From positions 1 to 35,807 of the IMG/VR virus record IMGVR_UViG_3300021964_000218: DNA of 35,807 nt. One strand, written 5' to 3'. The notes under the pieces were generated by a model that had not been told where the DNA came from, ran no database searches, and saw nothing but the letters and a program-made list of their open reading frames with translations. Position numbers and translations under genes: made by a program. The first letter of the stretch is position 1; each line of letters opens with the position of its first letter. Below, piece by piece: positions 7,873 to 25,326 of the stretch. This DNA comes from a virus.

Positions 7873-9135
7873 TTACTTTAATGATTTTGTCAAAGACTCT
7901 TCCAGAGCAGGCAACAAATGTCTCCAGGTCTTTGTCACGTTACGGAACTGATCCTGTCTGTCGTTGTATTTTATGAATGCTTCTTGTAATTGCCTGTACT
8001 TTTCAGGTGAGTGCTGATCTCTTCTCAGTTCCTTTATGATGTTCTCGTAGTTCTCATCAAATTTATACTTAGATAGTTTGTCCGCCACCTGCAACCTCCA
8101 GTCACGTGGTGCCATGTTGGGATTGCATATCAGTGGATACCACACTGTGGCCAACCAAGTGAATCCATACCTTTCGTTAAATTCTCCGCCACACCAGTGC
8201 TTCCACCACTTGATGATGTCGTCCAGTTGGTCTATATTAAGCAGTTGCACGGCAGGACTCAAAACTATTTGTCCATTTGTACCAAGTATGCTCCTGTAGA
8301 ACTCAAGACTTTGTAGAACTTTGTTCCACACACTTGGGTATCTGATATACTCCGTCCTCTCCCCCACTCCGTCCACACTGGCCCATATCCTCCAACCTTT
8401 TAATTTCGGCAACCATTTTGTGAGCCTGGTATTGGTGTTGGTTAGATTCGTAACTATTGTGACATTCTTGCTTCCTAAATTTCCCTGTTGATCGCAGTAT
8501 TCAAACAGTTCATAGAACTCTGGTATGAGAGTTGGCTCACCACCTATCACACAAAGATCATTTATGTTTTCACTTATGTGTTTGAACATCTTTAACTTGA
8601 ACTCGTTGTTCTTGTACCATTCTTGTTTCTTTCCTAGTTCGTTGGTCCAGTTATTGACGTTGGCACCTTGTTCTTTGACCCAATGCAACCATTCAGGATC
8701 TTGTTCACCGATGTCTTTGGTCTCCATGCCGTGCATGTGGCTGTACATCTGACTACACATCTTGCATTTGAGATTGCATATGTTTCCCAGTTGTATCTGC
8801 ATAGAATAAGCACTTTTCTGATAGGTGCCATCGGGTAAAGTATCTCCTATAAACTTATCCATGCCCGTCGTTGATCGTAAACTCTGTGTACCTTGCTCTT
8901 CCTGTCTGTAACACCTTTCACAATCTCTGATCTTTTCCCCAGCGATCATCCTCCTACGTATGTCCTTCATGCGATTGCTGTTCCAGTATTCTTCTATACT
9001 GTGTTTGCTGGCATCGAACAGGGTGTAGTTGTTATCGGTAGGAAGGTCCTGTATGGTGGTACAGCACAATCGCATCTTGCCATTGGGGTGTATGTAATTG
9101 TGATTGAAAGGCTTGTCACAGAAAACTTTGCTCAT
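7873..9135 (-). CDS. radical SAM protein with twitch/SPASM-like N-terminal cysteines
   Basis: Residues 120-127 form CNLKCKMC, the CxxxCxxC motif that binds the radical SAM 4Fe-4S cluster. Upstream, C6, C24-C25, C72 and C75 form a second cysteine set of the kind seen in phage 'twitch domain' radical SAM proteins. Further motifs include VIGGEPTL (residues ~215-222) and LTNTNTRLTKWL. These enzymes make radical modifications, often on peptides; the substrate here is unknown. The open frame starts at GTG 9138, but ATG 9135 shares one base with the preceding stop (TGATG), so translation is probably coupled to the peroxidase-like gene. Confidence 0.85.
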   Translation of the reverse strand: MSKVFCDKPFNHNYIHPNGKMRLCCTTIQDLPTDNNYTLFDASKHSIEEYWNSNRMKDIRRRMIAGEKIRDCERCYRQEEQGTQSLRSTTGMDKFIGDTLPDGTYQKSAYSMQIQLGNICNLKCKMCSQMYSHMHGMETKDIGEQDPEWLHWVKEQGANVNNWTNELGKKQEWYKNNEFKLKMFKHISENINDLCVIGGEPTLIPEFYELFEYCDQQGNLGSKNVTIVTNLTNTNTRLTKWLPKLKGWRIWASVDGVGERTEYIRYPSVWNKVLQSLEFYRSILGTNGQIVLSPAVQLLNIDQLDDIIKWWKHWCGGEFNERYGFTWLATVWYPLICNPNMAPRDWRLQVADKLSKYKFDENYENIIKELRRDQHSPEKYRQLQEAFIKYNDRQDQFRNVTKTWRHLLPALEESLTKSLK

Positions 9136-9527
9136 CACACTTTCCTCACAAATCTAGTCTTGGCATCAAAGTGATATTCAGTGAAGTCGTTAACTGGCAC
9201 GCCAAAGTCTTTGAAGAACTTGTGGGTGACATCTATCTTTTCTACTACATAAGATTTGAAACCCAATATGTTTTCGTAGTAGGCCACGATCTCGTAGTCA
9301 TCGCCTGGTTCAGTACCATTGTTGTCGAAAGGTATAGCAATAATGTTTTGCTCGTTTTTATTAATTAGGTCTTTGTAATAATCTATGTGTGATATGGCAT
9401 CTGGTGATTGGGAGCCCATTGCCACAAAGATTGTAGGCTTTCCATATATGTTATCCTCATGGATAAGGCCTAGTCGTAGCGAGTTCAACTGATACACTTT
9501 ACTTTTATAAAACATGATAGTCATCAT
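9135..9527 (-). CDS. glutathione-peroxidase-like protein lacking catalytic cysteine
   Basis: The 130-residue protein aligns by eye with glutathione peroxidases: GKPTIFVAMGS matches the strand before the catalytic loop, NIIAIPFDNNGTEPGDDYEI matches the 'GFPCNQFGGQEPG' signature, VVEKIDVT matches the 'FEKIDVNG' block, and NDFTEYHFD...FVRKV matches the 'WNFTKFLVDR...VVKRF' end. However, it contains no cysteine at all, and the Trp and Gln of the active site are not visible, so peroxidase activity is unlikely. It is coupled by a 1-base overlap to the radical SAM gene. It may act as a binding partner or substrate for that enzyme; this is inference. Family assignment rests on pattern recognition without a search. 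Confidence 0.6.
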   Translation of the reverse strand: MMTIMFYKSKVYQLNSLRLGLIHEDNIYGKPTIFVAMGSQSPDAISHIDYYKDLINKNEQNIIAIPFDNNGTEPGDDYEIVAYYENILGFKSYVVEKIDVTHKFFKDFGVPVNDFTEYHFDAKTRFVRKV

Positions 9528-15722: not shown

Positions 15723-16148
15723 TTAGATGTTAGTTACAACCGCAACTGTAGTTCCACCCACGTCGATGGTAGCATCTTCTGTGGTTGATGTTGAACTAGC
15801 TCTGCACTTGACTGAACCCAATGATTGTAGGTAAGTCTGCATGTTAGCGGCCGGTGTAGCAGTTGGTGAAGCAACGTTTCCGTCTGAGTCTCCCCATGTT
15901 GTCTCTCTTTCGACAGCAACAGTGATCACACCGTTTGTGGTTGTTACGTTGTAGTACTTTAAAGTACCCCTAGTCTGGATCGCCTGTAATATTCTGTCAA
16001 CGATTCCATCCTTGTGGGTGTTCGCGTCGATGTCTACTTCTGTTCCTGATGTGTCTTTAACCGTTACTGTGAAGTACTCGATTGCAACGTCACCAAAAGT
16101 AGTTGAACCCGCTGTGAACACCGCGTTGTTGTTTGAGTTGATTGCCAT
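15723..16148 (-). CDS. putative virion protein (141 aa)
   Basis: A beta-rich, Thr/Val/Asn-rich protein starting MAINSNN, with segments such as YFTVTVKDTSGTEVDID and GVITVAVERE that suggest an Ig-like or jelly-roll fold. The perfect Shine-Dalgarno AAGGAGG lies about 9 bases before the ATG. It is the first gene of the three-gene virion unit; upstream lie a hairpin and a perfect TATAAATA late promoter. A function in the capsid or tail is inferred. Confidence 0.7.
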   Translation of the reverse strand: MAINSNNNAVFTAGSTTFGDVAIEYFTVTVKDTSGTEVDIDANTHKDGIVDRILQAIQTRGTLKYYNVTTTNGVITVAVERETTWGDSDGNVASPTATPAANMQTYLQSLGSVKCRASSTSTTEDATIDVGGTTVAVVTNI

Positions 16149-16211: not shown

Positions 16212-16219
16212 TATTTATA
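16212..16219 (-). promoter_or_regulatory. T4 late promoter, perfect TATAAATA
   Basis: A perfect match to the T4 late consensus on the minus strand, 63 bases before the 141-residue virion gene. Unlike most other octamers here, it leaves a true leader with a hairpin and a strong ribosome site. Confidence 0.75.
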
Positions 16220-16247: not shown

Positions 16248-16367
16248 TTAAGATCTGGTGCGTTTTTGGCACTCCTTACAGCCACAGTCAGGGCAGTCCA
16301 GGCACTCTGTGCATGATTTGTTACAGTGCTGTTCACAGCCACAACGCTCACAGATGTACTTGATCAT
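16248..16367 (-). CDS. cysteine-rich miniprotein B (metallothionein/zinc-ribbon-like, 39 aa)
   Basis: Thirty-nine residues with ten cysteines at 6, 9, 11, 15, 19, 22, 25, 28, 30 and 33, arranged as CxxCxCx3Cx3CxxCxxCxxCxCxxC. The other residues are polar and charged. This density implies metal binding (Zn, Cu or Cd) by CxC and CxxC pairs, as in metallothioneins or small zinc clusters. The ATG overlaps the stop of miniprotein A (ATGA). The spacing is nearly the same as in A, so they are a tandem duplication. No family is recognised. Confidence 0.8.
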   Translation of the reverse strand: MIKYICERCGCEQHCNKSCTECLDCPDCGCKECQKRTRS

Positions 16368-16480
16368 TCTCTCTCCAGGCACTCGTGGCAATCGCAGACC
16401 TCACAGTTATCACAGTTGGTGCACTTCTTTTCGTCGCAGTGTGGATCACAGTTGCATCTATGACACTTTTCTTTAGTCAT
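16364..16480 (-). CDS. cysteine-rich miniprotein A (metallothionein/zinc-ribbon-like, 38 aa)
   Basis: Thirty-eight residues with ten cysteines at 6, 9, 11, 15, 20, 23, 26, 29, 31 and 34 (CxxCxCx3Cx4CxxCxxCxxCxCxxC). AAGGAG lies 5 bases before the ATG, inside the last codons of the 186-residue gene, and the ATG shares a base with that gene's stop (TAATG). It overlaps miniprotein B by ATGA. The three genes therefore form a translationally coupled late unit. Metal binding or metal-dependent folding is inferred from the cysteines. Confidence 0.82.
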   Translation of the reverse strand: MTKEKCHRCNCDPHCDEKKCTNCDNCEVCDCHECLERE

Positions 16481-17040
16481 TATAACTCCTTGAACTTCCT
16501 CTGTAGATCCGTGTTGGGCAACTTGTTGTTCAAAAGTTGTTGTAAGTTTTTTATCGTGCTGGCACGCGTCTTGGCGTCCAGGTTCGTGAAGTCGGCCACT
16601 CTCCTCCTGATGTTCCTGTAGTTGGCGTCGGTTATGTTCAGTGCCCTCTCCAGTTGTGTGAGGAATCGGTAGTGGTCCTCCCAGGTCCTCAGGTACCTAC
16701 GCACAGCCATCACGGGCACAGGTTGCCTCTGCCTCATGGCCTGTGCCTGGTTCTTGTTCTTGAGCTTCTTGGTTATCTCTGGATCACCGGATACAATAGC
16801 CAACATGTTGGCCAGGTCGTTGTGCACCATCCTCACGCGATCGAACGTGCCGTAGCTCATGGTCTGTGTGCCGTAGTTGTGTGCAAATGATCGGGTGTTC
16901 CGCTGTTGGCTCAGCACAGAAAGTGCCAGCAGGCTGAGGTATATCCTCTCCGTCACTTCCGGAAATGTGAACCTCTCCAGGTCACTATGACGCCTGATCA
17001 CCTTGCCCTCAGATACATACTTAAGAAATGGTGTTAACAT
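16480..17040 (-). CDS. basic hypothetical phage protein (186 aa)
   Basis: A helical, Arg/Lys-rich protein (QAQAMRQRQPVPVMAVRRYL, NYRNIRRRVADF) without recognised domains. The basic character could mean nucleic-acid binding or a structural role. The late octamer TATAAATA lies 5 bases before its ATG. It is followed by the two cysteine-rich genes with overlapping stop/start codons. Confidence 0.65.
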   Translation of the reverse strand: MLTPFLKYVSEGKVIRRHSDLERFTFPEVTERIYLSLLALSVLSQQRNTRSFAHNYGTQTMSYGTFDRVRMVHNDLANMLAIVSGDPEITKKLKNKNQAQAMRQRQPVPVMAVRRYLRTWEDHYRFLTQLERALNITDANYRNIRRRVADFTNLDAKTRASTIKNLQQLLNNKLPNTDLQRKFKEL

Positions 17041-17045
17041 AAAGA

Positions 17046-17053
17046 TATTTATA
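17046..17053 (-). promoter_or_regulatory. T4 late promoter, perfect TATAAATA
   Basis: Perfect octamer on the minus strand, 5 bases before the 186-residue gene's ATG, so the transcript would begin at the start codon itself. Confidence 0.7.
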
Positions 17054-22850: not shown

Positions 22851-23897
22851 TTATTTGGTCAACTCCTCCTTGTACACCGTGTTGTAGCCCAGTTGTTCAC
22901 TCCCGAAGTCGGCCAGGGTCTTCAACGCCTTTGGCGTGATGAACGATTTCAGCGTCCTCACTGCGGCGTCACCCTCTGCTCCGGTCCTCCACTCGTACTG
23001 TCCCACGTTCTTCTCTATGGCGGCACGTGATTCAGGATCCTCTATCATCCGGTTCAGTGCGTCCACGAGTTTATCTTTGTTGGGATTGCCCTTGTTCACC
23101 CAGAACGCCTTCTGGAGTGCGTCCCTCCAGCTCTTGACCAGTTTGTATGCGTCATAGAAGTCACCGCTTGGTGCCACTCCGTGCGTCTTTTCATACAGTG
23201 CCTCGAACGTGGGTTCAGTGAAGTTGGGATCCACGTCGTGCTCGCCAGTGTTGACGTTCAGCAGTCCATGATGGAACCATGTGATGGCCTCACCCTTGCC
23301 CACGATGGGCTCCACGTGTTTCTTGTACGCGGCAGGGTTCTCCCTAGTGGCGTTGAGGTCTCCCCTGATGAACGCCAGTCTCCTCTCGGAACCACTCATG
23401 CCCTTGACCCACACGATCTTCTCTGCGAAGACCTTGTTGTAGTCCGCGCCCGGTCCACCCAACAGCATGGTGATGGCCATGATCTCTGGGGTCATGCCCG
23501 ATCCTGAAGGGAACTTGATCGGTCCGTTGATGGTGTCCGCATCGTTCCTGGCGCCCACTATGATGTTGAGGTTCATCTGTCCTATGGACTCCCATTCCAG
23601 GTAGTTGTAGTCCACTGGCTCTATCAGGTATGATATACCATTACCACCATGTGATACCAAGATTGTCTTGTCATCGAACCTCAGCGTGTTCTGGAATTCA
23701 TCAGGACCCAGTATGTCCCTGGCCCCCGGCTTGTACACGAGGTTGATCTTCTCTCCCAGGTGTTTCTCCCATTCGGCCACAACTATCTGTGCCCACACGG
23801 ATGTTCCACCTGATGGTTTCTGTGGCACGATCAGGTTGTAGTCGGCCACGGCGACTGATGTCATCAACAGCAGTGCCATTATCGTTTTCTTAAGCAT
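22851..23897 (-). CDS. tctC: tripartite tricarboxylate transporter, substrate-binding protein (TctC family)
   Basis: TctC proteins are periplasmic binding proteins that hand carboxylates to TctA. The 348-residue product starts with a signal peptide (MLKKTIMALLLMTSVAVA, cleavage near residue 18), then YNLIVPQKPSGGTS and NLVYKPGARDILG, equivalent to the family's 'ltvpfpaGG..D' and 'vvenkpGAgg' blocks. The ligand cannot be predicted. It overlaps the end of tctA by 8 bases. TctC proteins are usually ~320 aa, so it is full length. Base composition is GC-richer than the surrounding phage genes. Confidence 0.88.
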   Translation of the reverse strand: MLKKTIMALLLMTSVAVADYNLIVPQKPSGGTSVWAQIVVAEWEKHLGEKINLVYKPGARDILGPDEFQNTLRFDDKTILVSHGGNGISYLIEPVDYNYLEWESIGQMNLNIIVGARNDADTINGPIKFPSGSGMTPEIMAITMLLGGPGADYNKVFAEKIVWVKGMSGSERRLAFIRGDLNATRENPAAYKKHVEPIVGKGEAITWFHHGLLNVNTGEHDVDPNFTEPTFEALYEKTHGVAPSGDFYDAYKLVKSWRDALQKAFWVNKGNPNKDKLVDALNRMIEDPESRAAIEKNVGQYEWRTGAEGDAAVRTLKSFITPKALKTLADFGSEQLGYNTVYKEELTK

Positions 23898-25326
23898 AGT
23901 CTATTCGACTCCTTTTTGTTATGCCCCAGTACAGCAACAGTATAACACAGACCATTATGGAAATAAAGATAGGTCTTGTTATCAAGTCAGTCACCGTGTG
24001 GAGCGTTGTTAGTTGATAAGTGAGATTGTAAATCCTGTCACTCAACAGGTATCCGATCAGCAGTGCTGGCCTACTGACTTGGAATTTCTTACATAGCAGT
24101 CCCATGATCGAGAATGCCACCAGTGTCGCTAGGTCCTCCCAGCCGCCCGTGTATTGTAGGGTTGCCCAAACAATCACTGCCAGTATGAAAGGGAAGTAGT
24201 ACACATATGGTATGCGTGTGACCCAGCCCGCGAAGTAGGCCAGTCCATAACAGATGATGGCAGTTATGATCGTCCCTAGCAAGAAGGCGAACGTCATGCT
24301 GTCGAACAGCCTGTCATCGTAGAATGTGTCGGGTGATCCCAGATCGATGCCCAGGTACAGGAACAAGCCCATCAGTATCGCGGCGAAACTGGCACCGGGT
24401 ATGCCGAACAGCACCGTAGGTATAAATGACGAGGCTTTCTGTGCGTTGTTGGCGCCCTCGGCACCTACCACACCCCTGACGTTGCCGTCACCGAATCGCT
24501 CCTTGGGATTCGCGGCCACCGTGGCCCCGTATGCCAACCAATCTGCCATGGCACCACCTAGGCCTGGAAGTAGTCCTATGAAACTACCTATCGCCCCGCC
24601 ACGCAGGCTGTCCCGCCAACACAGCACGGTGTCCTTCATTCCTTGTTTGAGATCATGCCAACTGCCACGCTCGGCCTTGATTGTCGTCGTGTTCTTCCTG
24701 TTGAACCACCCATCCCACAGTTCCGGTATGGCGAACAGTCCCGCCACGAACGGCAAGATCTGTACTCCGTCCTCGAGGTATCTCCAGCCCATGGTGAATC
24801 TTGGGACGTTGTTGACGTCCACTCCCACCAGGCCTATCACGATGCCCAACACTATGGCCAGTATGCTCCTGATGTATCGTCTGGTGGACACGAAGCCCAC
24901 TGTGACGAACGCCAACACGACCAGTGCCCACAGCTCGGGTATGCCCATCAACATCACGATCTTGGTGTAGTAGGGCAGGAACAGGAATGTCAGTGATCCC
25001 CAGAACAGACCGTTGGCGGTACTTGATGTAATGGCGGCACTCAATGCCCGCGTGGCCTCTCCACGCTTGGCCATGGGGAACCCGTCCACCATTGTCGCGG
25101 CCGCGGAGTTGGCCCCCGGTATGCCCAAGAGCACACCACTGAATGAATCACCGGTTGTCGAGGATGCCACAACTGCCACACAGAATATCACGCCCAGGTA
25201 GGGATCTCCCACGAAGTACGGCATGAATCCAAACAGTGTGATCAGTCCAGTGGTCGCCCCAGCGGCTGGTATCAGGCCGATGATCAAGCCATAAGCGATA
25301 CCCGCCATTAAGATAGCAAGTTCCAT
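23890..25326 (-). CDS. tctA: tripartite tricarboxylate transporter, large permease (TctA family)
   Basis: The 478-residue protein is a full-length TctA permease (family ~500 aa) with about 11-12 hydrophobic segments. The two repeated signature blocks are visible: GLIPAAGATTGLITL with LLGIPGANSAAAT in the first half, and GLLPGLGGAMADWLAYG with VLFGIPGASFAAILMG in the second. It moves organic carboxylates across the inner membrane using an ion gradient. A TctB (small 4-TM subunit) is missing between or beside the genes. It has its own sigma70-like promoter (25380-25407) and is followed by tctC with an 8-base overlap. Confidence 0.92.
   Translation of the reverse strand: MELAILMAGIAYGLIIGLIPAAGATTGLITLFGFMPYFVGDPYLGVIFCVAVVASSTTGDSFSGVLLGIPGANSAAATMVDGFPMAKRGEATRALSAAITSSTANGLFWGSLTFLFLPYYTKIVMLMGIPELWALVVLAFVTVGFVSTRRYIRSILAIVLGIVIGLVGVDVNNVPRFTMGWRYLEDGVQILPFVAGLFAIPELWDGWFNRKNTTTIKAERGSWHDLKQGMKDTVLCWRDSLRGGAIGSFIGLLPGLGGAMADWLAYGATVAANPKERFGDGNVRGVVGAEGANNAQKASSFIPTVLFGIPGASFAAILMGLFLYLGIDLGSPDTFYDDRLFDSMTFAFLLGTIITAIICYGLAYFAGWVTRIPYVYYFPFILAVIVWATLQYTGGWEDLATLVAFSIMGLLCKKFQVSRPALLIGYLLSDRIYNLTYQLTTLHTVTDLITRPIFISIMVCVILLLYWGITKRSRIDYA

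Follow-up and report, generated by a model that had tools for sequence, protein, structure and literature searches.

Two overlapping cysteine-rich genes in a T4-type late operon

Two small tandem genes, here called A and B, lie on the minus strand of the stretch of DNA that we analysed, a virus record of 35,807 bases (IMGVR_UViG_3300021964_000218, positions 1 to 35,807) referred to below as the window. ORF A (16364..16480) spans 38 codons (117 nt) and encodes a 38-aa protein with 10 Cys, 3 His and a pI of 5.2 (MTKEKCHRCNCDPHCDEKKCTNCDNCEVCDCHECLERE). ORF B (16248..16367) encodes a 39-aa protein with 10 Cys and 1 His (MIKYICERCGCEQHCNKSCTECLDCPDCGCKECQKRTRS). Cysteine makes up about 26% of each protein (10 of 38 residues in A and 10 of 39 in B). 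The cysteines of B are arranged as C-x2-C-x-C-x3-C-x3-C-x2-C-x2-C-x2-C-x-C-x2-C, and the arrangement in A is the same except that the fourth gap is x4. The two proteins share 49% identity across 37 residues, which makes paralogy the most likely relationship between them. Both contain CxC and CxxC pairs, nearly no aromatic residues, and five residues ahead of the first Cys. The start codon of B overlaps the stop codon of A within the sequence ATGA, and the start codon of A lies within the stop codon of an upstream 186-aa gene (TAATG). A first-pass annotation of this DNA, which named no strand, had described two tandem ten-cysteine genes with near-identical spacing and these two junctions, and the window sequence bears out every part of that description. 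The usual minimum ORF of common gene callers is 90 nt, so that at 117 nt shortness alone need not hide these genes from such programs.

We compared the window with 60 dinucleotide shuffles of itself, counting ORFs of 25–70 aa with at least 8 Cys and a Cys content of at least 20%. Exactly two ORFs of this kind, A and B, were present in the real window, and none occurred in the 60 shuffles. Together with the conservation described below, this result rules out A and B as chance ORFs.

The upstream gene (16480..17040, minus strand), which is coupled to A through TAATG, encodes a protein predicted to be an all-helical late protein. A T4-type late promoter box, TATAAATA, is located at 17046..17053 on the minus strand, 5 nt before the ATG of this gene, as the first-pass annotation had proposed. 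This box was the sole control element that we saw upstream of the operon. Its distance to the 186-aa gene was constant in 80 of 81 loci, in line with the earlier suggestion that A and B are produced late, and the stop/start overlaps of the operon were mostly retained across the same 81 loci. Preceded by a TATAAATA box and coupled to late structural genes, A and B belong to a T4-type late operon. The 186-aa protein is highly conserved, with 195 relatives in viral contigs. An AlphaFold2 model of it (pLDDT 78, pTM 0.79) gave no significant PDB fold match, and the protein matched no family and no phage isolate. Downstream of B, a second TATAAATA box (16212..16219, minus strand) serves the next gene, which encodes 141 aa (15723..16148, minus strand). 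Most relatives carry a methyltransferase gene that separates B from the region equivalent to that of the 141-aa gene.

Late boxes of the form NATAAATA, the one of the 186-aa gene among them, were recorded at 17053(-), 31485(+), 1869(-), 12653(-) and 7155(-), each ending only 5–8 nt ahead of the start codon of the ORF that follows, although the ORF behind the box at 1869(-) is possibly not a real gene. In T4-type late transcription the start site follows the box at a distance of roughly one helical turn (PMC2988020). With a box only 5–8 nt from the ATG, the leader of these late mRNAs would be very short or missing. The nearest isolates were Pelagibacter phage HTVC008M by the DUF6267 gene (43% identity) and Pelagibacter phage Mosig by nrdA (70% identity), both of which are marine T4-like phages. 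In an overlapping pair of genes elsewhere in the window (22851-25326, minus strand), one encodes a TctA-family tricarboxylate transporter (PF01970, E 1.8e-92) and the other a 348-aa product that resembles the binding protein of such a transporter and had no Pfam match. These two are possible phage-carried transport genes.

Conservation at the syntenic locus

A set of relatives free of any bias towards Cys was assembled by using the 186-aa protein as the only bait. Eighty viral contigs were fetched, and A and B were tracked in them by means of the flanking gene and DNA patterns. A and/or B occupied the expected position in 58 of the 80 contigs, and both were missing from the other 22. With the window included, the 81 loci comprised 38 with B alone, 20 with both genes, 1 with A alone and 22 with neither. 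Where both were missing, the 186-aa gene runs straight into a methyltransferase-like frame, the counterpart of which in one relative (L174) matches the FkbM family. The three frames of these empty loci showed no trace of A or B, and we saw no degenerate copy among the 80 syntenic contigs, so that each gene is either present in intact form or missing altogether. Presence and absence required 5 changes on the tree of the 186-aa gene, and none of 500 shuffles gave an equally low number. Thus, A and B appear to be mostly inherited, with occasional gain or loss.

The fetched loci contained 27 distinct A proteins, and 97 distinct B proteins were counted, a few of which were read from an upstream ATG. 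In the sets found through the flanking gene, pN/pS was 0.13 for B and 0.16–0.21 for A, the latter in two length classes. The Cys codons of both genes alternate freely between TGT and TGC, and B is strongly conserved outside its cysteines as well. The A and B frames are under strong purifying selection. The first-pass annotation had named a lack of conservation and broken frames as the outcome that would tell against its proposal; we found frames intact in the majority of relatives and pN/pS values in the range just given.

Distribution and divergent members of the family

The strict cysteine pattern of B was matched by at least 119 stretches. At 91 of 113 strict-pattern B loci the neighbours include the 186-aa gene as well as an FkbM-like gene; 14 adjoin a virion structural gene (phrog_5838), and 5 are near no reference gene. 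A, B and more divergent members share a common core. In an alignment of 44 members of all three kinds, the only invariant columns were the ten cysteines and His14; because the members were gathered in part by their cysteine spacing, His14 is the unbiased part of this result. On a single contig (L358), A and B are fused as one ORF, like a two-domain protein. A further group, subfamily C, carries an N-terminal D-D-x3-Y extension ahead of the same cysteine core, and its alignment with A and B gave an hhalign probability of 99.6%, a value possibly inflated by Cys content. Twenty-eight contigs carry subfamily C between phrog_11591, a virion structural gene, and the gene for the gp15 tail-sheath stabiliser (PF16724), with reading frames that touch or overlap. 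The corresponding two genes of the isolate Pseudomonas phage Cassandra abut, with nothing between them.

Other settings were encountered as well. A subfamily C gene lies beside an IscU-like gene at three loci. In L431 and L433 (IMGVR_UViG_3300027710_000958) it overlaps the IscU-like gene (PF01592), which is followed by an IscA-like gene (PF01521). Genes for rubrerythrin and redoxin were noted about 2–4 kb from a B gene (L116:5348-7568, minus strand).

Searches for relatives and comparison with known metal-binding proteins

Neither A nor B matched any entry in PHROGs, matches in Pfam and NCBIfam were at chance level, and B had no significant match in the PDB by sequence or fold. A tblastn search of 50,697 phage records with A, B, the L411, L418 and L340 proteins and the C types returned no credible match; in a local control, A/B relatives down to about 42–48% identity would surface, and with composition statistics the method has little sensitivity for proteins as short and Cys-rich as these. 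A profile search of a sample of 1,045 bacterial genomes from three classes gave no positive, with a control value of E 2.4e-18 on the window. When 84,980 bacterial and archaeal genomes were scanned with the cysteine scaffold as a DNA pattern, the matches listed were low-complexity poly-Cys frames only and were rejected. A word-matching literature search of partial coverage found no phage metallothioneins, which is therefore weak evidence. Within the scope of these literature and family-library searches, we agree with the earlier statement that no described phage system fits. We conclude that this family of aquatic T4-like phages is real, strongly selected, uncatalogued and virus-specific.

The profiles of two known metallothionein families were also run against the window. 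The bacterial profile (PF02069) gave no match at E 10; as a control, it responded in four genomes including Synechococcus elongatus, in one of them above the cut-off. The animal profile (PF00131) likewise gave no match at E 10, with a weak control in which no control genome passed the cut-off. Because both profile tests failed, A and B are not filed as members of these families. Several likenesses to SmtA/BmtA (PF02069) are nevertheless apparent. A and B are small, contain about 26% Cys arranged in CxC and CxxC pairs, which is a trait of bacterial metallothioneins, and have a His as a probable extra ligand and, probably, the ligand count of a four-metal cluster. They differ from SmtA/BmtA in having no aromatic-rich zinc-finger part, in being encoded by a virus, and in being under a phage late promoter instead of a metal-responsive repressor; their invariant cysteine spacing is presumably also unlike that of SmtA. 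Eukaryotic metallothioneins (PF00131 and others) similarly consist of Cys-rich domains, which in the phage family stand side by side or fused. In contrast to these proteins, the phage family has an invariant His and B has much conserved non-Cys sequence.

A proposed role in metal-thiolate coordination

The invariant Cys and His residues, the CxC and CxxC pairs, the lack of a leader peptide, the scarcity of aromatic residues and the reducing cytoplasm together point to metal-thiolate coordination, and metal binding by A and B is probable. CxC/CxxC pairs and a near absence of aromatics are typical of metallothioneins. Four-metal clusters, of which cyanobacterial SmtA offers an example, use eleven ligands, as many as the putative ligands of each domain here. 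Four Zn are bound by SmtA (PMC10612145). Based on the ligand pattern and count, we favour a cluster protein of the Zn(II) type that would serve as a late metal buffer or donor. In the scheme that we infer, from the metal and its stoichiometry to the fold and the physiological role, A and B would be paralogous single-domain miniproteins, each domain folding around metal ions of the d10 type (with Zn(II) the most likely) and having its ten cysteines and one invariant His as putative ligands. Their late synthesis would depend on the TATAAATA promoter ahead of the 186-aa gene and on translational coupling, and they may buffer metal freed in host takeover and/or hand metal to late phage metalloproteins. 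That A and B are virus-specific late miniproteins binding Zn(II) or other d10 metals as thiolates and acting like metallothionein is, in our estimation, an evenly balanced proposition. The A–B fusion speaks for it, since it resembles a two-domain protein. The conservation of B outside its cysteines is more than a passive metal sponge needs, and the virion-structural operons of several lineages also fit a structural role. An AlphaFold2 model of B was moderately confident (pLDDT 74) and is silent on metal. The metal-binding, metallothionein-like biochemistry put forward in the first-pass annotation is the most plausible one in view of the ten invariant cysteines and the invariant His, although known metallothionein profiles do not match.

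As a virion or assembly component, A and B would be a small zinc-stabilised clip or a metal cargo, attached to a protein of the head, neck or tail and carried out of the cell with the particle, a role that we consider rather unlikely. It would account for the fact that A and B of the window clade are coupled to a late gene, for the approximately 14 of 113 loci directly beside the phrog_5838 gene, for the placement of subfamily C between phrog_11591 and gp15, and for the conserved non-Cys sequence of B. However, absence from 22 of 81 syntenic loci and from between the same two genes in Cassandra argues that the proteins are not an essential structural part, and the neighbouring genes vary between lineages. 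A virion metal store, as suggested earlier, would suit the virion-structural surroundings in several lineages, but phages can do without the gene at these sites. That same non-Cys conservation would also suit a regulatory or adaptor zinc finger, with one or two structural zinc sites, whose partner late in infection would be a protein of the host or the phage, or a nucleic acid, for example as an inhibitor or assembly factor. B does contain C-x2-C-x4-H-x4-C, the spacing of CCHC zinc knuckles (retroviral nucleocapsid, AIR2), and its top PDB sequence matches were such knuckles, none of them significant (E 1.2–7.8). The family has six more invariant cysteines than a knuckle, and all ten are kept, which is more than two zinc sites require. 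Moreover, the knuckle spacing is broken in A of the window (x5) and in most of subfamily C, in which the first gap is altered, so that A and B do not belong to the CCHC family; A is also acidic (pI 5.2), unlike nucleic-acid-binding knuckles. We regard an adaptor of this type as doubtful.

The remaining alternatives involve iron or peptide modification. Donation of iron or Fe-S clusters, or thiol redox activity, for phage iron enzymes would explain why subfamily C genes overlap or adjoin IscU- and IscA-like genes at three loci, and why other members are near genes for heme oxygenase and fatty-acid desaturase (L175), radical-SAM proteins (L340), or rubrerythrin and redoxin (L116). These neighbours are suggestive and few. 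Genes of these kinds are possibly widespread among aquatic phages, and the main clades have no iron or Fe-S neighbours. We regard this function as improbable. Still less credible is a precursor of a radical-SAM-modified, thioether cross-linked peptide. The window does contain a radical-SAM/SPASM gene (7873-9138, minus strand), and the L340 relative, which has a longer N-terminus than A and B, adjoins radical-SAM genes. However, the radical-SAM gene of the window lies outside the operon, at a distance of about 7 kb, and five residues before the first Cys leave no leader peptide. With neither a leader peptide nor an adjacent maturase in the window, this candidate was rejected.

A broader version of the metallothionein-like reading is that these phages own a metallothionein-type family, unrelated to the cellular ones, that loads virion or tail proteins late or exports metal in particles. 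We think this unlikely; if it were true, abundant aquatic phages would move zinc, copper or iron between cells. Phage tail fibres carry iron-binding HxH sites, which underlie the Ferrojan or Trojan Horse hypothesis (PMC11705849). That system similarly links aquatic phages, late proteins and metal, but its ligands are His residues within large fibre proteins, whereas A and B are free-standing putative thiolate miniproteins. An uncatalogued and strongly selected family thus recurs in late structural operons of aquatic T4-like phages. If its members bind metal, they would constitute a virus-owned metal-thiolate system built of peptides of about 40 residues, relevant to the way phages deal with zinc, copper or iron in waters where metals are scarce.
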